Positions 1,636-32,747 of a stretch of DNA of 64,000 bases are shown here, piece after piece; the stretch's first letter is position 1; every line of letters begins with the position of its first letter. The notes below the pieces were generated by a model. The model was not told the origin of the DNA, did not search any database, and saw only the letters and a list, made by a program, of their open reading frames with translations. The position numbers and the translations under genes were made by a program. Source of the stretch: Cyanobacteriota bacterium (lineage in GTDB: Bacteria; Cyanobacteriota; Vampirovibrionia; Vampirovibrionales; Vampirovibrionaceae); contig JAIEMW010000004.1 of the NCBI GenBank assembly GCA_019751815.1, positions 105,933 to 169,932 of the forward strand. Direction: 5' to 3'.

Positions 1636-2820
1636 TTAAACATGCGTTTTTTTATTCGGCGTTTTTTTATTCGGCGTTTTTTTATTCGGCGCTTTTTTAT
1701 CCGCTCTGGCTTTTTTATTGCCCCAGTTCTTAATGCCCCACAGGGCATTCACCGATTTTGCTGATCCGATCCGGCGAATGGCTTCGGCTAACATTTCCGA
1801 CACAGACAGCTGGGTAATTTTGTCACCCAGTGACTTGCAGCGCTCTGGCAATGGAATAGTGTCTGACGTGATTATTTTTTTAAAGGGGAGGTCTTTCAAA
1901 TTATCTGCCGCAGGCCCGCACAAAACCCCGTGAGAAAAGAAGCCCCAAATTTCTCGAGCCCCCCCGTCCAACACCGCCTGCACCCCATTTTTAACAGAAC
2001 CGGCCGTCGAGATAATATCATCGAAAAACACCACGATTTTTCCATTAACATTTCCGACCAAACGACCAGACTCAACCTGAGATCCACTGATTCTCTTTTT
2101 GGGCGTAAAGGCAATCCCCGCACCCAGGGCATTGGCCAGAGGTTCTAAACGACTCACCCCACTGGCATCTGGGCTGACAAAGACCAATTCATCTGGCTTT
2201 ATTTTTCGGTCTCGGATCAGTTTACTAAAATAGTTATACGCCAGTGGCAACGTCGGGATGTTATCAAAGGGCCCATCAAAAAAACCACGTGTTTGCCCTG
2301 AATGCAAATCAACCGTGACCACACGATCTACCCCAACCGCCTTCAAGGTTTTCGACACCATACTGCCCGAGATGGGTTCATGGATTTCATCGGCCTTACC
2401 GTCTTTGACAGGGTCTTTGGGTAGGTCCTGTCGGGCATAGCCGTAATAGGGCATCACCGCCGTAATAGTGCGGGCACCGGCCCGTTTAAACGCATCCACC
2501 ATAATCAACAGCTCAACCAGGTTATCATTCACCGGGGCACAGGTTGGCTGAATCACAAAGACGTCTTTATCCGTCACATCGGTTTGAACTTTGACTTCTA
2601 CTTCACCATCTGGATGGCTTTGTACCTGTATGGCTGATAAGGGGAGTTTCAGGTGCTTGGATATTTTTGCGGCCAACGCTGGATTGGCCCGGCCGGTAAA
2701 TACCCGGACATTATCCAAATTTTTGGGTGTTTTTTTACCCGCAAAATGCAGTGTACCGGGTGTGGAGATAGTATTCACTCGGCCAGAAAAAAGCAGTGGA
2801 TTTATGCCAATCGTCATCAC
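1636..2820 (-). CDS. prs: Ribose-phosphate pyrophosphokinase-like protein with Lys-rich repeat tail
   Basis: It belongs to the PRPP synthetase family, which transfers pyrophosphate from ATP to ribose 5-phosphate. Visible motifs are PVNDNLVELLIM, PYYGYARQD, the VDLHSGQTRGFF segment and a DDIISTAGS phosphoribosyl loop. Several signature positions differ from canonical Prs: the phosphoribosyl loop has Ser where Asp is usual, SGVSRLE replaces the usual GGVxRAR, and a longer loop follows ARQD, where the adenine binds. The protein is 394 residues against about 315 for the family. The extra length is an N-terminal leader of about 30 residues with FSG and FAG tripeptides, and a tail of repeated P-N-K-K-T units. 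It may be the housekeeping enzyme or a relative with an altered substrate. Confidence 0.85.
   Translation of the reverse strand: MMTIGINPLLFSGRVNTISTPGTLHFAGKKTPKNLDNVRVFTGRANPALAAKISKHLKLPLSAIQVQSHPDGEVEVKVQTDVTDKDVFVIQPTCAPVNDNLVELLIMVDAFKRAGARTITAVMPYYGYARQDLPKDPVKDGKADEIHEPISGSMVSKTLKAVGVDRVVTVDLHSGQTRGFFDGPFDNIPTLPLAYNYFSKLIRDRKIKPDELVFVSPDASGVSRLEPLANALGAGIAFTPKKRISGSQVESGRLVGNVNGKIVVFFDDIISTAGSVKNGVQAVLDGGAREIWGFFSHGVLCGPAADNLKDLPFKKIITSDTIPLPERCKSLGDKITQLSVSEMLAEAIRRIGSAKSVNALWGIKNWGNKKARADKKAPNKKTPNKKTPNKKTHV
1646..1705. repeat. 15-bp tandem repeat with T7 runs in the 3' end of the prs-like gene
   Basis: Three exact copies of a 15-bp unit (GTTTTTTTATTCGGC on the plus strand) and a fourth degenerate copy lie end to end. 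On the minus strand they encode the P-N-K-K-T repeats of the protein tail. Each unit holds a run of seven T, so the array could vary by slippage or unequal recombination, altering only the tail. Confidence 0.9.
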
Positions 2821-2823
2821 AAT

Positions 2824-3681
2824 TTACCCAATATTGGCTGGATCTGAGGCAAAGGCGCTCAAATCATCGACACAGAGGTTATTGCCAAACGGCGCAACGC
2901 CACGGTCTTGCAAGCGATATTTAATTTCTTTGTGCTGCTCTTTAATCAGCTCTTCCAGTAAATTGAGCAGCATCTTGCTTTTGGTGGCTGTGGTCACAAA
3001 CGTGATCACTTTACCGTCCATCACCTCATTGAGGGGATCTTTTTCCACAGGTTTTTTGGGATTATCCACAATCTTCACCACCATCAAGGCCTTATCCACA
3101 TCTACCCGGGAAAACTGCTCTAGCTTAAATTGATAGCCCATGATCGAAGCATCACTCAAAATGGCTTGGGCTTCATCGAAATTTTTCAATGGCGCCTCCG
3201 GCGGTTTGACTCCCTCATTGGCTAATTGTCGGACAAAAGTGACCAATTTATCGATAATAAAATGGGGATTGCCGATTTGTTTGCCTTGATAACGGAAATT
3301 TTCACGGACCTCATGCTCTTCAATGGCAATGAGTGCTACCAACAGTGTCTGCAGAATTTGCCCCCGTTTATAATGAGGCAGAATCGGCCATTTTCTGGCC
3401 CCTGTGCGAAGTTCTGCCTTAGAGCCAGGGACATCGACATCAGGCGCCATGTACTGCACCTGCAAGCTCATATTGGCAGGGGTATCCCCATGCAAAACAA
3501 AGAAGTACCCGTCTTTATAGGAAAATTCTTTCAGCATTGCCCGCACAGTTTCTGGTGTCTGCAGTATAGGCGCTAATGGAGTGGCGGGGCTAGCAGCGGT
3601 TGTAGACCCGAACCGCAAGGTGGGTTTAAATTGTGGGGGAAAGTGACTGTTTGGCTGTTGACGCGTTTGTAACTGAATCAC
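2824..3681 (-). CDS. Uncharacterised 285-residue protein with N-terminal FG tag
   Basis: I do not recognise this family. The start chosen is GTG at 3681 because a perfect AGGAGG sits 7 nt upstream (3689-3694); the frame runs open to 3768 but has no such site there. The N terminus is polar and Pro/Gln-rich and contains LRFGS at about residues 22-26, the short tag seen in many proteins of this window. The middle is predicted mixed alpha/beta, with a helix-rich stretch after the GARKWP segment. No signal peptide or membrane segment is visible. It lies 3 bp upstream of the prs-like gene on the same strand and is probably cotranscribed with it. Confidence 0.7.
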   Translation of the reverse strand: MIQLQTRQQPNSHFPPQFKPTLRFGSTTAASPATPLAPILQTPETVRAMLKEFSYKDGYFFVLHGDTPANMSLQVQYMAPDVDVPGSKAELRTGARKWPILPHYKRGQILQTLLVALIAIEEHEVRENFRYQGKQIGNPHFIIDKLVTFVRQLANEGVKPPEAPLKNFDEAQAILSDASIMGYQFKLEQFSRVDVDKALMVVKIVDNPKKPVEKDPLNEVMDGKVITFVTTATKSKMLLNLLEELIKEQHKEIKYRLQDRGVAPFGNNLCVDDLSAFASDPANIG

Positions 3682-3768
3682 AAAAGATCCTCCTAATAAC
3701 ACACCGTCTTGATAACACACCATGCGGTTTCTATTGCTTGCTATTTCTATTGATTGAATAAAACACAA

Positions 3769-3800
3769 AGGCAGCCAAACATGATCTGCCTCATTTTTTT
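3769..3800 (+). terminator. Hairpin followed by T run
   Basis: AGGCAG (3769-3774) pairs with CTGCCT (3786-3791), followed by a T-rich run on the plus strand. No plus-strand gene lies upstream, so it may instead be a hairpin in the leader of the minus-strand gene ending at 2824. The function is uncertain. Confidence 0.35.
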
Positions 3801-3920
3801 GCTCAAGTTATTACAAAAAAGATACATTCATCGCCCCAAGGAGCAGCATAATTCAGCCATGGCCAAAATCCACCGATAAAACGGATTGAGAGCAAAGGTT
3901 ATTGAGAATCAACCAAACGA

Positions 3921-4328
3921 ATGCCAAAGTGCGGATTTACACTTATTGAACTCGGTATTGTCGTCGCCCTGATAGCCGTCATGGCGGCCGTTGCTGTGCC
4001 CAAATTGGCCAACACCGATGAAGGGTCAGAAGGGGCTGTGATGAAAGATATGGTCTCTCAACTTTCAACGGCTGCATCCACCTACACACTGAGAACCGGC
4101 AATATTCCCAATGATTTTTCAGACTATGTCACCACAGCCCCACTGTCAGAATCTTCGAGTCATTACACACTCAGCACGCACGATTTTGGCACACAAGCCA
4201 ATGGCGAGGGCTGTATGGTGATTGGGGCACAAATTGTTTGCCAAGAGGTTTTTCGCTCTGCTGAAAGTGCCAAGTATGACTTTAACGATGGTGCAATCAC
4301 CCTAACAGCAGGATCATTGGGATTATAA
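3921..4328 (+). CDS. Type IV pilin-like / pseudopilin protein
   Basis: The N terminus has a class III prepilin signal: a short basic leader MPKCG, then FTLIE with the conserved Glu at mature position 5, then a hydrophobic helix of about 20 residues. Such proteins are cleaved and methylated by PilD-type peptidases and assembled into type IV pili or type II secretion pseudopili. The mature domain is short (about 130 residues) and has two Cys near the C-terminal half that could form a disulfide. No assembly ATPase or secretin is adjacent, so this is an orphan subunit. It converges on the gene at 4354. Confidence 0.85.
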   Translation: MPKCGFTLIELGIVVALIAVMAAVAVPKLANTDEGSEGAVMKDMVSQLSTAASTYTLRTGNIPNDFSDYVTTAPLSESSSHYTLSTHDFGTQANGEGCMVIGAQIVCQEVFRSAESAKYDFNDGAITLTAGSLGL

Positions 4329-4353: not shown

Positions 4354-4785
4354 CTAGGATCTTGGTTTCAGCAGGTCATAAGCTGTTTGCAAGGAGCGCT
4401 CGTCCGTAATATCAACCACGGGTCGGCCAGAAACATCATGGGATTTTCGCGCCCACACCTCACTGAGGGTCTGCTCTGCCTGATACGCTTTCGCAGGTTC
4501 TTCTGGTGTCGGAATAAAACTGCTCCCTGGCACATGGGCCTTCTGTTGAAAGGCGTCCTCTCGAAAAGTCAGCGCGTCCTTGCCGGTTAGCACCACAAAA
4601 TCGACATCGCGTGGCTGCACTATTTGATCCAGCCTCAACGCAGTGCTATCCCCCATGGCTTCTGCAAATTGTTTGAGCGCAATGGCCTGCGATCGCGTAT
4701 CGCCACCCTTATTTTGAGGCTGTTTAAAGCGAAATATATGACCAAATTTTACGGTGCTATTAGCGCTGGAATAATTGAAAGACAT
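4354..4785 (-). CDS. Small protein of the LTGxDA family (143 aa)
   Basis: The ATG at 4785 is chosen because AGGAGA lies about 8 nt upstream; the longer open frame overlaps the neighbouring gene without a ribosome site. The protein has the N-terminal tag VKFGHIFRF (about residues 12-20), a central VVLTGKDALTF and a C-terminal GRPVVDI segment followed by an amphipathic helix. The same three elements in the same order occur in the genes at 7958, 56568 and 57005, so they appear to be paralogues of a family I cannot name. There is no signal peptide or membrane segment. It follows the kinase-like gene at 4808 by 22 bp on the same strand and is probably cotranscribed with it. Confidence 0.7.
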   Translation of the reverse strand: MSFNYSSANSTVKFGHIFRFKQPQNKGGDTRSQAIALKQFAEAMGDSTALRLDQIVQPRDVDFVVLTGKDALTFREDAFQQKAHVPGSSFIPTPEEPAKAYQAEQTLSEVWARKSHDVSGRPVVDITDERSLQTAYDLLKPRS

Positions 4786-4807
4786 GGACTTTCTCCTATT
4801 TAGAAGT

Positions 4808-6391
4808 CTATTCTGAGGGGTGTGGGTTGGCTGGATAGGGGAAATGTTCCTGAGGAGAGAGGTCTGGCTTAAAGTGCTCTGGATTCCGGCTGAGAACAAC
4901 AGACTGAGAAGGACAGAAAGATTGTTGTTGCTTTGCATAAATATCTAATGCCCGTCTAACCTCTTTGGAGCGGCCCAGGCCGCCGAGATCAACACGCACA
5001 TCATCCACATAATTATTATCCCCCTCATCATAAAACCGAAGTCGTAAATCAGACAGACTCACTTCAGCGTCTCTGTCATTTTTGGGGGTTTTGTTTTTTT
5101 GGGGGGCTCCTGGCTCCATATTTGTTTGATCCTCTTCGATAAAGGCGGTCAGTTGCCATCCAATCAAGGGGTTTGCCATATAAAAAGGAACAATGCCTTC
5201 CACCTGTTTAGAATTTAGATATATCCCGTTGGCAGCTTCTTTATAGGGCCCATGCAAGCTAGAGATAAAGCGATCATCCTCTGTCTCTGGAATACCTGAG
5301 TATGTTTCTTCCGAGAAAATCTTCAAGGCATATTTTTCATCCCCAATTTTTACCCGAAAGACTGCGCCGAAACTGCCGTCACCCACGCGGGTAAATGCCA
5401 CTGTTTTGATTGTATTGCCTTTGGCATCTGTAATGGGCTTGGGCAGAGGGGCCACAAAAAGACGTTGGTCCAAATTCTTGGTGGTTAAAACCGTGTGCAT
5501 CCGCTTTCCTTGGGCATCTAACCACTGGCAAACTTCCGCTTCTGAGAGACCCATTGCCTGCTGAAGGGTTTCTGGTATGTAACCCATATAGGGATTCTCC
5601 GGTTCTTTGGCCAAGAGTTTTTTGACAGTTGCTTCACTGAGCAACTGATTGGCAGCCCGACGTGTGGTAATCGGTCCGCCAAAATAAAGCGGTTTGGCAA
5701 CATGGGCCCGGTAACCCACCCGCATGCCCCCAAAATCGTAGCGCAGCCCGTCAAAGTCATTACTGGCCTCATCCGTAAAGTGCAGCTGCAAGGATTGATA
5801 CGTAGGTCCAAAGCGGGGGGCATGTCGTATTTCAGCGTCAAGATATTCTTGCAATAGCCAGTCCCCAGAAGGCTTGGCGCAGTAAAACTGCACCACATCG
5901 GACACCCCACGCGCATTAAGCCAGAGTCCGTTAGCAGGCTCTTTATAAGGCCCATGGTCTTGATAATTTCCGGGATTCCCTTTAAAACACTTCAGCTTCA
6001 TCGTAAAAGGTGTCTTATCCGGTGCACTTAAGATGACTGCATAACTATGCGCATAAGTACCCACACCCAAATACCGCACTTGCAAGTTTTTTAAGCGGGT
6101 AACCCCGGACTCTATGTCCATAGTGCGGTCGGGAATCACTCCCGGGTGTCGCTTTAAATAACGCGCCAGACTATCCATCTCCTGCATAAACTCAAGCGCA
6201 CTCAAACCACTGATTTTCAGAGCCGTCTCTGGCGCTTCACCCACAAAACTGGCGTCTGGCCCACCCGTTTTTTCCTCGGCAGCAAGTTTATCAGCAAACT
6301 CTTTTCGAGACAGAAGCGTTTGCCTAGCCGCGGCTGTGGTAATGGGGCCGCCAAATAATAGGTTTGGTCTATTCACACTCACACGGTTCAC
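4808..6391 (-). CDS. Two-copy kinase-like protein with FGGPIT repeats
   Basis: The protein consists of two homologous units, about residues 10-235 and 235-490. Each begins with FGGPITT and a short helical region ending in LLS. Each then has a kinase-like set: a glycine-rich loop (LGVGTYAHS at 108-116; VGDGSFGAVF at 336-345), a lysine in a strand (Lys134; Lys357 in YALKIF), HGPYKE (Glu151; Glu385), an Asp/Asn cluster (207-211; 455-460) and D-[FL]-G-G (219-222; 468-471). These match the order of the P-loop, VAIK Lys, helix-C Glu, catalytic-loop Asp/Asn and DFG of protein kinases, but no HRD is present. A related single unit is at 7005. The start is uncertain among the GTG codons at 6391, 6382 and 6376, since no strong ribosome site is seen. 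Function is unknown; an active or pseudo-kinase are both possible. Confidence 0.75.
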   Translation of the reverse strand: MNRVSVNRPNLLFGGPITTAAARQTLLSRKEFADKLAAEEKTGGPDASFVGEAPETALKISGLSALEFMQEMDSLARYLKRHPGVIPDRTMDIESGVTRLKNLQVRYLGVGTYAHSYAVILSAPDKTPFTMKLKCFKGNPGNYQDHGPYKEPANGLWLNARGVSDVVQFYCAKPSGDWLLQEYLDAEIRHAPRFGPTYQSLQLHFTDEASNDFDGLRYDFGGMRVGYRAHVAKPLYFGGPITTRRAANQLLSEATVKKLLAKEPENPYMGYIPETLQQAMGLSEAEVCQWLDAQGKRMHTVLTTKNLDQRLFVAPLPKPITDAKGNTIKTVAFTRVGDGSFGAVFRVKIGDEKYALKIFSEETYSGIPETEDDRFISSLHGPYKEAANGIYLNSKQVEGIVPFYMANPLIGWQLTAFIEEDQTNMEPGAPQKNKTPKNDRDAEVSLSDLRLRFYDEGDNNYVDDVRVDLGGLGRSKEVRRALDIYAKQQQSFCPSQSVVLSRNPEHFKPDLSPQEHFPYPANPHPSE

Positions 6392-6502
6392 ACACCGACA
6401 GCCTTTATATTACACACACATTCACACAGATTTCTAAAAGAAAAACCAAACTTTCTCAACAATTGCTTCTGTGCTTGTGGCAAAAAAAAAAGTTAACGCA
6501 AA

Positions 6503-6943
6503 TTAGGCCAGCCGGTTTAAGTGATTTCCTGAGAAAGCAGCTGTTGGAATATCCCGGTATTCAACCGGTTTGCCTGCCTTTTCAGCCGCTTCGATCCCGT
6601 ATTCCATGCCGCGAGAAATTCCTCTGGCTGCATAGACCACCGTTTTATCTGCCACTCGGCGCCAGGCGAGTCCGGCATCAATGCCCAGTTGTCGCTCGGC
6701 GGGATTATTATCATCCAACACGCCCGGCTGTGTATAAAGCAAGTGGCTGGCAATGGGGGCCTCTCCCCGTAACAGGCTGTCTCTAAGAGCAGCTCTGGCA
6801 TATTTGAGATGACCTTCAGCCGCCTCTGCGGTGCTGGCAGCAAACGGAGACTCAATAATCACCAGGGGCTTATTGGTCGATAACGTCGTAGGCACAGCAG
6901 TTGCCTGTGTTTGACCAAAACGGGGATGAACCAGTTTTAACAT
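6503..6943 (-). CDS. DUF7768-type protein (146 aa)
   Basis: The ATG at 6943 has AAGGA about 8 nt upstream. After a short N terminus with VHPRFGQ, the protein matches a family common in phages and actinobacteria: VIIESPFA, a helix with YARAALRDSL, RGEAPIASHLLYTQPGVLDD and GLAWRRVAD followed by VYAARGISRGM and KPVEYR. The fold is thought to be Rossmann-like, in the SLOG/deoxyribosyltransferase-like group, but the activity is not established. Here it carries the same FG tag as its neighbours. It lies between the two kinase-like genes on the same strand. Confidence 0.75.
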   Translation of the reverse strand: MLKLVHPRFGQTQATAVPTTLSTNKPLVIIESPFAASTAEAAEGHLKYARAALRDSLLRGEAPIASHLLYTQPGVLDDNNPAERQLGIDAGLAWRRVADKTVVYAARGISRGMEYGIEAAEKAGKPVEYRDIPTAAFSGNHLNRLA

Positions 6944-7004
6944 CTCAGTTTTCCTTACACACACGTAACACACATAAACGACGACTCTAGCAGAAACATG
7001 GTAT

Positions 7005-7874
7005 TTAAAACAGTATGAGTGATTTGACCCACCCAATCACACCTGTCCAGGCTGCTCTAAAGGCAGAGCGGCGAACACGCTCAAGCCCGCCGTAATCAAA
7101 ACGGACATGACGAATACTATTATCCAGATCGTCGTCTAAAAACTGTAAGCCTAAATCCTGATATGTGGGGCCCAACATCTGTCCAGTATGAAAGACAAGA
7201 CTATTGTAAAATTGCTGATCGTCGTCTAAGTAAGCTTTGGCGAGCCAGCCTTTGAGGGGATGCGCTGCATAGAAGGGAACCACGTTGGTGACATTTCTGG
7301 CAGTGAGGAACAGCCCGTTGGCGGCTTCTTTATAGGGACCGTCCTTGGAAAACGCCTTCACTGTATCGGATGTCGGCAAGAAATCCTGCTGAGTTTCTCT
7401 CTGATCCTCTCGCAAACCGTAAATCCCAAGCATGGGTTTAAACACTTTCAAGCACAGTGTTGCTTCACCCACTTGCACGGCAAAGCTTTTGCCAAATGTT
7501 CGTTCTCCCAGAAAGATAATTTTTGCGCCTGGGGGTAACGGTACCGTCAGCGACTCATTCACGATACGGATGGACTCTTCTCGGGTCAGACTGTCTACCA
7601 CCCATGAGCTCCGCAGGATCAGCGCCAACTCATCGAGTTGTTTTTTTGCATGGCGATCATCCAAGCCAACAGCCTTTAGCCACGCTTTCGGTAATTCGCC
7701 CACGGTGGTATCGTGAGGCTCTTTGGCCAAAGCGCGGATAAATTGATCCCGACTCAAGAGTCTTTCCTGAGCCTTCTTTGTCGCCAGAGGCCCAGCGAAA
7801 GTAATCTTGGAATAAGGCAGAGAATGACAGGCAACACGAGCGCGCATCTGGGAATATACCTCTGGAAACATCAT
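7005..7874 (-). CDS. Single-unit kinase-like protein with FAGPLAT motif
   Basis: This 289-residue protein aligns with each half of the gene at 4808. It has ITFAGPLAT at about 24-32, then a helical segment, then the kinase-like set: LGERTFGKS (122-130), Lys143 in CLKVF, GPYKEAANG (179-187), LDDDLDN (246-252) and D260-Y-G-G. The glycine-rich loop has Glu-Arg where a glycine is usual, so nucleotide binding is less certain than in the second unit of its neighbour. The ATG at 7874 lacks a ribosome site; ATG 7847 has AGAGG about 10 nt upstream and may be the true start. No HRD-type catalytic loop is seen. Confidence 0.7.
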   Translation of the reverse strand: MMFPEVYSQMRARVACHSLPYSKITFAGPLATKKAQERLLSRDQFIRALAKEPHDTTVGELPKAWLKAVGLDDRHAKKQLDELALILRSSWVVDSLTREESIRIVNESLTVPLPPGAKIIFLGERTFGKSFAVQVGEATLCLKVFKPMLGIYGLREDQRETQQDFLPTSDTVKAFSKDGPYKEAANGLFLTARNVTNVVPFYAAHPLKGWLAKAYLDDDQQFYNSLVFHTGQMLGPTYQDLGLQFLDDDLDNSIRHVRFDYGGLERVRRSAFRAAWTGVIGWVKSLILF

Positions 7875-7957: not shown

Positions 7958-8449
7958 TCAGGCCAAGAGATTTAGCTGTCGCATCACCCGATCGAGCTGT
8001 GCCGCACTGATGATTCGGACTGGAGGTTTTCCCTCTGCATCTTTTTCAACAGAAACCCAGTGCGCTTCTGGATTGGGTGCCGGACTGGGTATGTGTTCTC
8101 CGCCTAAATCACTCAGTAAATCTGGTCCAAGCTGCTGAACAATGGCTCCTGCCTGATGTCGAACACGAGATAAATTGGCATGCTCACCCGCCGCTAAATA
8201 GGTGCGAGCATCTTGCCCCGTTAAGACGATATCCGTATAGGGCCCTTCCGGTGAGGTAAAACGAACGGCAGTAGTCCCTTGTCGGTCTAGAGCATCATGA
8301 AAAGAAATCGCAGGATTAGGGCCCGCCTGAGGCGCACTGAGACCACGCTGACTGACATGCCCGTGGGGTGCTCTACCGGCCTTCCCTTCTTGAAAAGAGG
8401 TAAAACGGTAGATCCCGGAGAATTGGGGCAGACTGTTATAGCAAGACAT
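7958..8449 (-). CDS. Small protein of the LTGxDA family (163 aa)
   Basis: The protein has the N-terminal tag PQFSGIYRF (about residues 8-16), a central IVLTGQDARTYL and a C-terminal KPPVRI followed by a helix, matching the plan of the genes at 4354, 56568 and 57005. The region between tag and core is Pro/Ala/Gly-rich. No export signal or membrane segment is visible. It is the most upstream gene of the minus-strand accessory set that ends at 4354. Confidence 0.65.
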   Translation of the reverse strand: MSCYNSLPQFSGIYRFTSFQEGKAGRAPHGHVSQRGLSAPQAGPNPAISFHDALDRQGTTAVRFTSPEGPYTDIVLTGQDARTYLAAGEHANLSRVRHQAGAIVQQLGPDLLSDLGGEHIPSPAPNPEAHWVSVEKDAEGKPPVRIISAAQLDRVMRQLNLLA

Positions 8450-28757: not shown

Positions 28758-31700
28758 ATGCTCGATTGGCTCAATAAGATACTGGGTGACCCCAACCAGC
28801 GTAAAATCAAGAAACTCGAGCCAATTGTGGACCAGATCCACGACTTGGAGCCCGAGCTGCAAAAACTCAGTGACGCTGACCTTCGGGCTAAAACCAATGC
28901 GTTTCGCCAAGAATTAGACAACCGGGAACGCTCAGAGAATCCCAAAAGAGACCGTGAACTAGAAGCAGCGGTTTTAGAGCTCATTCTTCCTGAAGCCTTC
29001 GCGGTGGTTCGTGAAGCAGGCCGCCGGGCTCTGAATATGCGTCATTTTGATGTGCAAATGTTGGGCGGAATGGTGTTACACCGTGGCGGCATCGCAGAAA
29101 TGCGAACAGGGGAAGGCAAGACACTGGTGGCAACGCTTCCGGCCTATCTCAACGCCCTCAGTGGTAAAGGCGTCCATATTGTCACCGTCAATGATTACCT
29201 TGCTCGACGCGATGCCGAATGGATGGGAACGATTTATCAGTTTTTAGGCCTCTCTGTGGGTCTGGTGCTCTCTCAGCAACGAGGCTTTGATAGCGCCGCA
29301 GAAAAAAAATACGCCTATGGCTGTGATATCACGTACGGCACCAATAACGAGTTTGGCTTTGACTATTTAAGAGACAATATGGCGGGCTCACTCTCGCAGC
29401 TGTGCCAACGCCCTTATAATTACGCGATTATTGATGAAGTAGACAGTATCTTGATTGATGAAGCCCGGACCCCACTGATTATCAGCGGTCGGTTGGAGCA
29501 ATCTGCAGATACTTACCGGATGATGGCCCGTATTGCCCCGTCTTTACAGAAAGAACGGGATTATACCGTCGATGAAAAAGCCCGCAATGTCGTACTGACT
29601 GAAGAAGGGATTGACCGCGCCCAGGAACTATTGAACGTTGACGATCTCTTTGATCTAAAGACCAATTTGGCCCATCACCTTTTGCAGGCCCTCAAATCCA
29701 AAGAGCTCTTCCGCCGGGATATTGATTATGTCGTTAAAGACAATCAAGTCGTGATTGTGGACGAGTTTACCGGTCGTTTAATGGAAGGCCGCCGTTGGAG
29801 CGACGGGCTTCATCAAGCTGTGGAAGCCAAAGAAGGGGTTTCCATCCAGGATGAAACACAAACCCTTGCCAGTATTACATTCCAGAATTTATTCCGGCTC
29901 TATCCGAAACTTTCTGGGATGACAGGTACTGCGATGACCGAAGAAGCTGAATTCGGGAAGATTTACAACCTAGAGGTAACCGCCACACCCACAAACCGGA
30001 GTGATGTGCGGACAGACTACCCAGATGTGATCTACAAAAACGAGAAGATCAAGTTCTACAAGGTGATTGAAGAGATTGTGGAATGCCACGAGCAAGGCCG
30101 CCCAGTCCTGGTTGGTACCACTTCTATTGAGAAATCTGAGTGGATTTCCTCGCTACTCACCACCCCGATGGAGTTAACCCAACATCTCCGGGAAAAAGCC
30201 GGTCGTTTGGTCAAACAGCTCGAAAAAAACAATGAAAAAGACCTTCTCGCTGAATTTTCCAGCCTGCTTCGCTCTCCAGAAGCCCAAAGCCCGAGTGCAT
30301 TTTCTCAAGCTGCGGAAAAGTATGCTCAAACAGAGCTTGCAGATTGGTTTAAGGGATTTGAAAAAACCTTGAATACAGTCTTAGCAATACGTAAGGGGCT
30401 TCCGCACCATGTGTTAAACGCCAAACATCATGAGCAAGAAGCCTTCATCGTCGCCCAAGCCGGTAGATATCAAGCTGTCACAATTGCCACCAACATGGCG
30501 GGCCGCGGAACTGATATCCTGCTGGGTGGTAATCCAGAATACCTTGCAAAAGCAGAGCTGGCCGAAAAAAATACCGACTGGCGAAGTCTGGCACCTGCCG
30601 ACTATGAGCAGCTGGTGAGAGAGAAAAAGGCCATTACGGAAACTGAAAAAGCCAAAGTTGTTGAAGCCGGTGGGCTTCATATTATTGGCACAGAACGACA
30701 CGAATCGCGCCGTATCGACAACCAGCTTCGCGGCCGGGCTGCTCGACAAGGGGATCCTGGCTCTACCAAATTCTACCTCTCTCTCGAAGATCATCTGATG
30801 CGTATTTTTGGCGGTCAGAAGGTGGCCGGTCTGATGGATCTGCTTAATGTGGATGAAACCATGCCCATCAGTGCAGGGATGGTCAGTAAGGTCGTCGAAG
30901 GTTCACAGCGTAAAGTAGAAGCCTACCATTTCGATCTGCGCAAGAACATTTTGAAATACGATGACGTACTGACGGAACAGCGCCGTCTCATTTACGAGCA
31001 GCGTCGTCGCGTGCTCGAAGGGCAGAACCTGCGCGAGCAGATGCTCAATATGATGCAAAACGCGATTGCCCGGATTGTGCCAAGACATATTTCTGCCGAG
31101 CGCTCTCACCGTGACGAGGAGTGGGACACCGATGTCCTTCAAGCGTTAATGGCTGAAATGTCTGCCCTTGTTCCGGCTTTGGCTGACGTTGAACCCAACA
31201 CCATTGCCAAAATGGCCTACAAGGATATTTTGAACACGCTACAAAGTAAGGCTCAAGAAGCCTATGAGGCGCTTGAAGCCGAAATGACTCGAGTCGCAGA
31301 AGAGTTGGCAAGCACTCACGGGATTCGGTTATTGGGCCTCGAAGATGAGCGTGCTGATGAAAATCCTGATGAGAGCGCTAACGAAAGCCTTCCACAAGAG
31401 CCAAACCCCTCCACTGCATCCCTTGCCAATCGACATCCTTTGCGCCGAGTAGAACGCGATGTGCTTTTGGCCGTTGTGGACGCCAAGTGGATTGATTATT
31501 TGCACAACCTAGACTCTTTGCGCGAAGGGATCGGCTTGAGGGCTTACGGCCAAAAAGATCCCCTGATTGAGTACAAGCGCGAAGCCTTTGAAATGTTTCA
31601 GACAATGACCTACGATATTCAAGAAGAGGCGGTTTCTCTGTTATTTAGAGCCCGTATTGAAATCCAACTAGAACAATTGCAAACCCCGGTGGAAGAAGAG

Positions 31701-31901
31701 TTTGTGCCCACCGCGCTGACTGAGGCCATGGAAGAAGCCTCTCTGTCTCACGAAGATATCGGCAGCTACGGAGTCGATACGGATGAGCAGCTCAGTGCCG
31801 CTGCTGCAGGACAGCCTGTCTCTGTTGCACAAAAACCTCAACGCAATGACTTCTGCCCTTGCGGGAGTGGGAAAAAGTTCAAAAAGTGTCACGGGGCTTA
31901 A
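28758..31901 (+). CDS. secA: Preprotein translocase ATPase SecA
   Basis: SecA drives export of unfolded proteins through SecYEG using ATP. The sequence shows MRTGEGKTLVATLPAYLNAL (Walker A), VNDYLARRD, YAIIDEVDSILIDEARTP, GMTGTA, NMAGRGTDILLGG, TERHESRRIDNQLRGRAARQGDPG and the C-terminal zinc motif CPCGSGKKFKKCHG. At 1047 residues it is larger than usual (about 850-950). Part of the difference is an insertion of about 75 residues between SIEKSEW (near 455) and HHVLNAK (near 550) in NBD2. A TPR-free acidic linker near 875-900 adds more. Confidence 0.97.
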   Translation: MLDWLNKILGDPNQRKIKKLEPIVDQIHDLEPELQKLSDADLRAKTNAFRQELDNRERSENPKRDRELEAAVLELILPEAFAVVREAGRRALNMRHFDVQMLGGMVLHRGGIAEMRTGEGKTLVATLPAYLNALSGKGVHIVTVNDYLARRDAEWMGTIYQFLGLSVGLVLSQQRGFDSAAEKKYAYGCDITYGTNNEFGFDYLRDNMAGSLSQLCQRPYNYAIIDEVDSILIDEARTPLIISGRLEQSADTYRMMARIAPSLQKERDYTVDEKARNVVLTEEGIDRAQELLNVDDLFDLKTNLAHHLLQALKSKELFRRDIDYVVKDNQVVIVDEFTGRLMEGRRWSDGLHQAVEAKEGVSIQDETQTLASITFQNLFRLYPKLSGMTGTAMTEEAEFGKIYNLEVTATPTNRSDVRTDYPDVIYKNEKIKFYKVIEEIVECHEQGRPVLVGTTSIEKSEWISSLLTTPMELTQHLREKAGRLVKQLEKNNEKDLLAEFSSLLRSPEAQSPSAFSQAAEKYAQTELADWFKGFEKTLNTVLAIRKGLPHHVLNAKHHEQEAFIVAQAGRYQAVTIATNMAGRGTDILLGGNPEYLAKAELAEKNTDWRSLAPADYEQLVREKKAITETEKAKVVEAGGLHIIGTERHESRRIDNQLRGRAARQGDPGSTKFYLSLEDHLMRIFGGQKVAGLMDLLNVDETMPISAGMVSKVVEGSQRKVEAYHFDLRKNILKYDDVLTEQRRLIYEQRRRVLEGQNLREQMLNMMQNAIARIVPRHISAERSHRDEEWDTDVLQALMAEMSALVPALADVEPNTIAKMAYKDILNTLQSKAQEAYEALEAEMTRVAEELASTHGIRLLGLEDERADENPDESANESLPQEPNPSTASLANRHPLRRVERDVLLAVVDAKWIDYLHNLDSLREGIGLRAYGQKDPLIEYKREAFEMFQTMTYDIQEEAVSLLFRARIEIQLEQLQTPVEEEFVPTALTEAMEEASLSHEDIGSYGVDTDEQLSAAAAGQPVSVAQKPQRNDFCPCGSGKKFKKCHGA

Positions 31902-31934
31902 AGTTAGCCCTGCACTCGTCAGAACTCGTCGCGT

Positions 31935-32747
31935 TTATTCTTTTTCAACGCTGATCACCATGGTCCAACACAGAAGACCAATCGGCGGCAAACAGCGAAA
32001 GAGAAAAGCGTCTAACTGGGCCAGAGGTTGAAAGAACCATTGGTATTTGTCCGCGTCGTACAATACTTTCTTCCAGTAGCGTACTTTCCCTGGGTGAGCA
32101 CGTTCTATCAAAAAGAAGTACAAAAATACGACCAAGGTGGTCAGCCAGAAGTAATGCACGGTCGTCTTAGGGAAAAGGTCACGAATAGACTGAACATCAG
32201 CGAGCGTGAGCGGCTTTTCGTCAACTGTCCGAACCTCTCGGGCCATATAGCGGTAAACATTAATCACCGGGTTATACGGCAAGGGCTCGATAAAATAGCC
32301 TTTACCCCCAACACGAAGCAGGCGCTGGACTTCTTTCATCGTGGGAGGGATATCAACGTGGTGAAGAACGCCGTTGGCAAAGACAACATCACAGCCATTC
32401 TCCTCAAAAGGCATCGCTTCTGAGGCACAGACTCTGGCATCAATCTGCACCTGATGATGTGCGGCCAAGGCATGGGCACAGTGAATAAAACCAGGTGAGA
32501 TGTCCGTCGCTAACACACGGGCACCTTGCTTTGCAAAATAGACAGCCGATTCACCGGCCCCACAGCCCATATCCAAGACCGTTAATGACTCTAGTGGACC
32601 GAGGGACTTGGTAATGTCTTGAAGAATAAACTGGGTTTCAATCGCCGTCTTGGCGGTAAAGGCTATGGCCGGATCTATGGCCTCAATTTCAATCTCTTTG
32701 GCCCATTGATCATGAAATTCTGCCTCACGTTGTTGTCGTTCTGTCAT
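31935..32747 (-). CDS. SAM-dependent methyltransferase
   Basis: A class I methyltransferase of the UbiE/Methyltransf_11 type. Motif I is LDMGCGAGES, followed by an acidic ribose contact in ATDIS and GVLHHVDI in the active-site region. The C-terminal part has a hydrophobic stretch (TTLVVFLYFFLI) that could bind a membrane or a lipid substrate. ATG 32747 is chosen over TTG 32762. The substrate is unknown. It converges with secA and lies downstream of fabF. Confidence 0.85.
   Translation of the reverse strand: MTERQQREAEFHDQWAKEIEIEAIDPAIAFTAKTAIETQFILQDITKSLGPLESLTVLDMGCGAGESAVYFAKQGARVLATDISPGFIHCAHALAAHHQVQIDARVCASEAMPFEENGCDVVFANGVLHHVDIPPTMKEVQRLLRVGGKGYFIEPLPYNPVINVYRYMAREVRTVDEKPLTLADVQSIRDLFPKTTVHYFWLTTLVVFLYFFLIERAHPGKVRYWKKVLYDADKYQWFFQPLAQLDAFLFRCLPPIGLLCWTMVISVEKE

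Follow-up and report, generated by a model that had tools for sequence, protein, structure and literature searches.

A predicted kinase-fold domain family with a strongly reduced C-lobe, present in three copies at a locus of a Vampirovibrionales genome

The analyzed DNA (hereafter the window) is a 64,000-nucleotide stretch of contig JAIEMW010000004.1 of a Cyanobacteriota bacterium of the order Vampirovibrionales (class Vampirovibrionia), a relative of the cyanobacteria that does not photosynthesize. It contains two genes, both on the minus strand, that together encode three homologous units, as had been proposed in the initial annotation. The first (4808..6391; GTG start, with several alternative GTGs close by) encodes a 527-aa protein composed of unit 1 (residues 1-231; 5699..6391, minus strand) and unit 2 (residues 227-500; 4892..5713, minus strand). 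The second (7005..7874) encodes a 289-aa protein that constitutes the third copy. Similarity among the three units extends over their full length and is far above chance (pairwise E 7e-25 to 1e-32): unit 1 and unit 2 share 29% identity over 254 columns (E 7e-25), the third copy and unit 2 share 30% over 257 columns (E 1e-32), and the third copy and unit 1 share 34% (E 2e-30). A tree built from 92 domains of the family groups them together in a single clade (support 100/80), within which unit 1 pairs with the 289-aa copy (support 100/62) and unit 2 lies outside this pair. The domain has thus undergone a lineage-specific triplication and, since the units are only 29-34% identical, the duplication must have occurred long ago.

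The two genes are separated by a gene (6503..6943, minus strand; likely ATG start at MLKLVHPRFGQ) encoding a DUF7768 protein (Pfam PF24963, E 2.1e-29), which is not clearly a member of the kinase-like system. The ORF listed at 4354-4938 overlaps the gene of the 527-aa protein, and the more likely start lies at 4785 (MSFNYSSANSTVKFGHIF, which contains the FxG box described below). The small flanking genes (4354-4785 and 7958-8449) were considered as a repeated partner module, which was rejected, as they share just an 11-residue match. Scans of the locus for promoters and terminators gave results no better than those for shuffled sequences. The locus had been described as an accessory island. 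Two sister genomes retain the gene pair 8580/9114 and have no kinase-like gene in the flank that was read, which indicates that the cluster is variable; this part of the description holds, but no compositional island was seen, the GC content being flat at the locus.

The motifs originally pointed out in the three units, including residues Lys357 and Asp468 (numbering of the 527-aa protein), were identified correctly and rank among the positions that vary least in the family. Across 92 domains with a mean identity of about 16%, conservation reaches 98% for Gly339, 98% for Lys357, 97% for Glu385, 86% for Asp455, 95% for Asn460, 99% for Asp468 and 98% for Gly470; Gly381 is conserved at 89%, and Gly270 and Pro273, in the N-terminal helical part, are also among the best-conserved positions. 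The best-conserved residues of the core follow the order of a kinase active site, i.e. Gly loop, Lys, Glu, Asp-x4-Asn and Asp-x-Gly. Lys, Glu, Asn and the second Asp are jointly kept in 87 of 98 rows of the alignment, and all five residues, including the first Asp, in 73 of 98, with all three window units among the latter. Within the window, unit 2 is the only copy with every motif (GDGSFGAVF, K357, E385, D455-x4-N460 and D468LGG). Unit 1 retains K, E, D, N and DFGG and has an altered Gly loop (GVGTYAHS), while the third copy retains K, E, D, N and DYGG and has the loop GERTFGKSF, in which Arg replaces the second Gly. This pattern of conservation argues for selection on a putative nucleotide-Mg binding function.

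Profile comparisons were used to place the family among known kinases. Alignment by hhalign with 10 Hanks-type kinases of the same class gave a probability of 90 (E 1.6e-6), with the sequences in register from the Gly loop to DFG, compared with a probability of 0.1 (E 0.58) in a negative control against an unrelated family. The segment LRFYDEGDNN-YVDDVRVDLGG is paired with the HRDLKPSN...DFG segment, which places Asp455 opposite the HRD aspartate and makes N460 (95%) and D468 (99%) the equivalents of the Mg-binding N171 and D184 of PKA. The HRD motif, reported as missing, is therefore lost only as far as "HR" is concerned: its aspartate has an aligned counterpart, at the D-x4-N spacing to Asn460. 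The family profile also matches a canonical Hanks kinase in one genome of the class (E 1.3e-5), and profile searches against the PDB matched almost only protein kinases, mainly over the N-lobe. The search of the Pfam kinase clan that the initial annotation had suggested revealed that, in 7 of 17 members, the N-lobe matches FTA2 (PF13095; E 4.8e-5), although below the curated cut-off (21.6-23.6 bits vs 30.2) and over about 50 of the 214 model positions. FTA2 belongs to the PKinase clan (PMC9758233). No member matches Pkinase (PF00069) above the cut-off, and 1 of 17 matches it at all (E 0.099). Other matches were stray and weak, with single members hitting urease alpha, DUF6127 and Derepression, and two members MADS6 (E 0.016).

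AlphaFold2 produced a model of unit 2 with a pLDDT of 85.7 and a pTM of 0.83; the core modeled alone (about residues 322-492; 4916..5428, minus strand) adopts the same fold (pLDDT 85.3, pTM 0.76). Four helices (model residues 15-77) are followed by strands and helices in the order of a kinase N-lobe, beta1-beta2-beta3-alphaC-beta4-beta5, with the Gly loop, the beta3 Lys and the alphaC Glu assigned on the predicted secondary structure. According to DSSP, the core consists of beta1-3, alphaC and beta4-5 and a short C-terminal part: only about 84 residues follow beta5, made up of a brief variable segment, the loops with D-x4-N and DxGG, and a single long C-terminal helix, and no activation segment, APE motif or substrate-binding helices are recognizable. 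The geometry of the putative nucleotide pocket was derived from the alignment. Comparison with the PDB by Foldseek, likewise suggested originally, recovered a kinase fold in all 50 best matches, mostly protein kinases (IRAK4, Hck, RIO) and, for the core, also two small-molecule kinases, LicA and NahK; a search of a viral library likewise returned mainly protein kinases. The scores are weak (best E 4.3e-3 for unit 2 and 1.0e-3 for the core; for the core, probability 0.99-1.00 and TMq 0.31-0.57): TM-scores reach only about 0.5 and no match falls below E 1e-3, a consequence of the absence of most of the C-lobe.

These modest E-values, and sequence matches that lie mainly in the N-lobe, are what might be expected if the motifs resembled those of kinases by chance and the domain had another fold. 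The Pfam clan, the PDB profiles, hhalign with its control, AlphaFold2 with Foldseek and the residue conservation all agree, however, so that chance resemblance is very improbable, and it is very likely that the domain has the predicted kinase-like fold. The same lines of evidence support the original suggestion of a possibly new kinase-fold family. The family is new, its predicted fold is known but unusually reduced, and we propose a model for its putative function below.

The family shares with Hanks-type kinases (PF00069) the fold class, the order of GxGxxG, VAIK Lys and alphaC Glu, the D-x4-N spacing and a DFG-like Asp-Gly. It differs from them in (i) the loss of HR from HRD, (ii) the spacing from Asn to Asp (8 residues, vs about 13), (iii) the lack of most C-lobe helices, the activation segment and APE, and (iv) an additional N-terminal region of about 70 residues, which is helical and contains a G-x-[LI]-P motif. 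FTA2, named after a kinetochore subunit, is the best Pfam match and resembles the family in the Gly-loop/Lys region, but this likeness is sub-threshold and spans no more than about 50 residues. RIO kinases (Rio1, Rio2) are likewise compact and atypical, and Rio2 ranks near the top of the structural matches by TM (TMq 0.50-0.57), but Pfam finds no RIO sequence match in the family, and RIO kinases keep a fuller C-lobe. A reduced C-lobe is also found in the minimal effector kinases SteC of Salmonella and OspG of Shigella, and SteC too is devoid of HRD. The family profile gave a weak N-lobe match to the SteC structure 8JBI (E 0.049), the only sequence relation found. In contrast to the new family, SteC should, according to predictions, still possess alphaE, alphaF and alphaG, and it can dispense with its proposed alphaC Glu, a residue that is 97% conserved here. 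Bearing HD and DGD motifs, SteC is an active enzyme (PMC13395416).

We propose a model in which a normal kinase N-lobe (Gly loop, beta3 Lys, alphaC Glu) would be followed by a strongly reduced C-lobe retaining a remnant of the catalytic loop (D-x4-N without HR), the D-x-G-G magnesium loop and one helix. ATP-Mg would be bound between the N-lobe and the two loops, and phosphate would be transferred, most likely to a protein. It is fairly probable that ATP-dependent catalysis is conserved in the family. Unit 2 would be the complete, probably catalytic copy of the 527-aa protein. Unit 1 and the 289-aa copy would resemble the pseudokinase of a tandem pseudokinase-kinase pair, being probably weak or having a regulatory role. 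The altered Gly loops of the latter two, beside a unit with every motif, favor such an arrangement, although this division of labor is tentative and somewhat less likely than not.

A different reading would make all of these domains pseudokinases, i.e. allosteric or scaffolding modules that bind nucleotides or partners and do not catalyze, for example together with the HEAT tails of paralogs. The loss of HR throughout the family, the largely absent C-lobe, the altered Gly loop in two of the three window copies and the fusion of paralogs to repeat scaffolds are consistent with it. So is the fact that Asp455 is not universal: 14% of class members lack it, all six aligned distant relatives have Asn in its place, and phosphotransfer by the usual catalytic base is consequently not assured. 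Families without catalysis, however, usually lose some of the residues Lys, Glu, Asn and Asp, which stay at 95-99% across this very divergent family. Moreover, SteC is active although it lacks HRD and has a depleted C-lobe (PMC13395416). We therefore regard the pseudokinase reading as unlikely, with perhaps one chance in four.

The Mg-binding Asn and Asp are better kept than the catalytic Asp (95-99% vs 86%), and in this respect the family resembles kinase-fold enzymes that use ATP for other reactions, e.g. the transfer of AMP or a ligation. SelO is one such enzyme. Another is SidJ (PMC6858067). Nothing specific points to such a chemistry, though, and most members from the class retain the D-x4-N spacing found in ordinary kinases, which renders this alternative improbable. 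On balance, we favor, with a probability of roughly 60%, a compact HRD-less kinase-fold enzyme family in which unit 2 is intact and putatively catalytic and the copies with altered loops are probably regulatory; we infer its catalysis, substrate and location.

Of 382 genomes sampled from the class, 143 gave matches in a search with the family profile, although a few of the weakest (e.g. that in G018) may be Hanks kinases caught by the profile; the Candidatus Gastranaerophilales constitute one large subset. Outside the class, more remote relatives were detected with a larger profile in 10 genomes of the same phylum (E 1e-11 to 1e-17). Proteins were read from 8 of these 10 genomes, and the six that were aligned retain Lys, Glu, Asn and DxGG, with Asn at the position of Asp455; none of them has a Pfam match above the cut-off. 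The family is not covered by any model of Pfam, NCBIfam, PADLOC or PHROGs, and a literature search returned nothing on it. A scan of genome contigs with the 289-aa protein as the query gave no match, nor did searches for a phage, plasmid or IMG/VR origin, in which the viral-contig scans reach close relatives only.

Three further copies are located in the same genome on a 44.7-kb contig (C7), at 1776-4220, 29283-30887 and 30887-32515, all on the minus strand. In each, the kinase-like part is followed by HEAT repeats (HEAT_2 E 3.8e-9 for the first copy, with weak matches in the other two). Genes that by eye are phage-like (terminase-like, portal-like) adjoin these paralogs (C7 36997-42132; L009:6997-12132); one of the HEAT-containing paralogs was compared with known phages and gave no match. 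Kinase-like domains also occur in proteins of very large size (1525-2285 aa, with some truncated where the locus ends) of three other loci (L052, L053 and L055), where they are placed mid-protein or near the C-terminus. That of L053 (3615-9500) also contains an HExxH stretch with a weak match to Peptidase_M91 (E 0.0098).

The FGGP/FAGP sequence, initially taken as the start of each kinase unit, turned out to be an N-terminal box common to unrelated proteins and not a kinase motif. This "xxF[GST][GA]" box, usually situated 5-35 residues from the start, occurs on many unrelated proteins of the window and of C7. Among the ORFs of these two regions, which span about 109 kb and have predicted start codons, it was found at frequencies of 4.4 and 6.3 per 1000 residues within the first 40 residues vs 0-1.6 further on, an enrichment of several times to tenfold. 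It is present in the window at 1636-2820, 4808, 7005, 7958, 56086, 56568 and 60682, and in many genes of C7 (L007-L009). Most kinase-like family members have it (F in 94% and G in 86% of 77 rows). The box, a putative clade-wide N-terminal signal, constitutes a separate lead. The PRPP synthetase encoded at 1636-2820 has an N-terminal extension with two copies of the box (LLFSGRV, LHFAGKK), which is odd for a cytosolic enzyme. A tandem array of about 11 small paralogous genes (123-144 aa) on C7 (22994-27863; L008:2994-7863) mostly encodes proteins with an FxG/FxA box.

A common N-terminal box would also suit effectors that a type IV secretion system exports into prey or host cells, in keeping with the analogy to effector kinases drawn originally. 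Vampirovibrio has been proposed to use such a system in predation (PMC4451040), divergent copies of the domain occur in differing contexts across genomes, and the HExxH stretch of the large relative in L053 weakly matches the M91 effector-protease family. However, the box is also carried by PRPP synthetase, a cytosolic enzyme, and VirB4 (PF03135) was not found in the own genome of the locus. Among 58 sampled genomes VirB4 was present in three (G005, G009 and G042), none of which has a family member, and the sampled carriers of the family have no VirB4; as VirB4 is rare in the sample, this non-overlap is weak evidence beyond the own genome. Delivery by a type IV system is therefore disfavored and quite improbable, and the effector-kinase analogy gains no support from this side. 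A flagellar export system, another conceivable route of delivery, is present in the window.

Hanks kinases (PF00069, E <= 1e-10) were detected neither in the own genome nor in 18 sampled genomes of the order, which suggests that ordinary Hanks-type kinases are absent from the order as a whole. In the Gastranaerophilales-type family, one of nine sampled genomes (G020) contains a Hanks kinase, and other families of the class have many, with up to 36 reported. It may be speculated, at a low probability, that the domain family provides the main phospho-signaling or other ATP-based protein-modifying machinery of this Hanks-less lineage, with the role of the C-lobe taken over by the N-terminal helical region and with sorting by the clade-wide FxG signal.

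The kinase-fold family described here is widespread, occurring in about one third of the sampled genomes of the class, with both gut and environmental bacteria among the carriers, yet it is without a model in the libraries searched. It occurs in an order in which 18 genomes showed no Hanks kinase, and it shows how little of the C-lobe a kinase-like active site may need.
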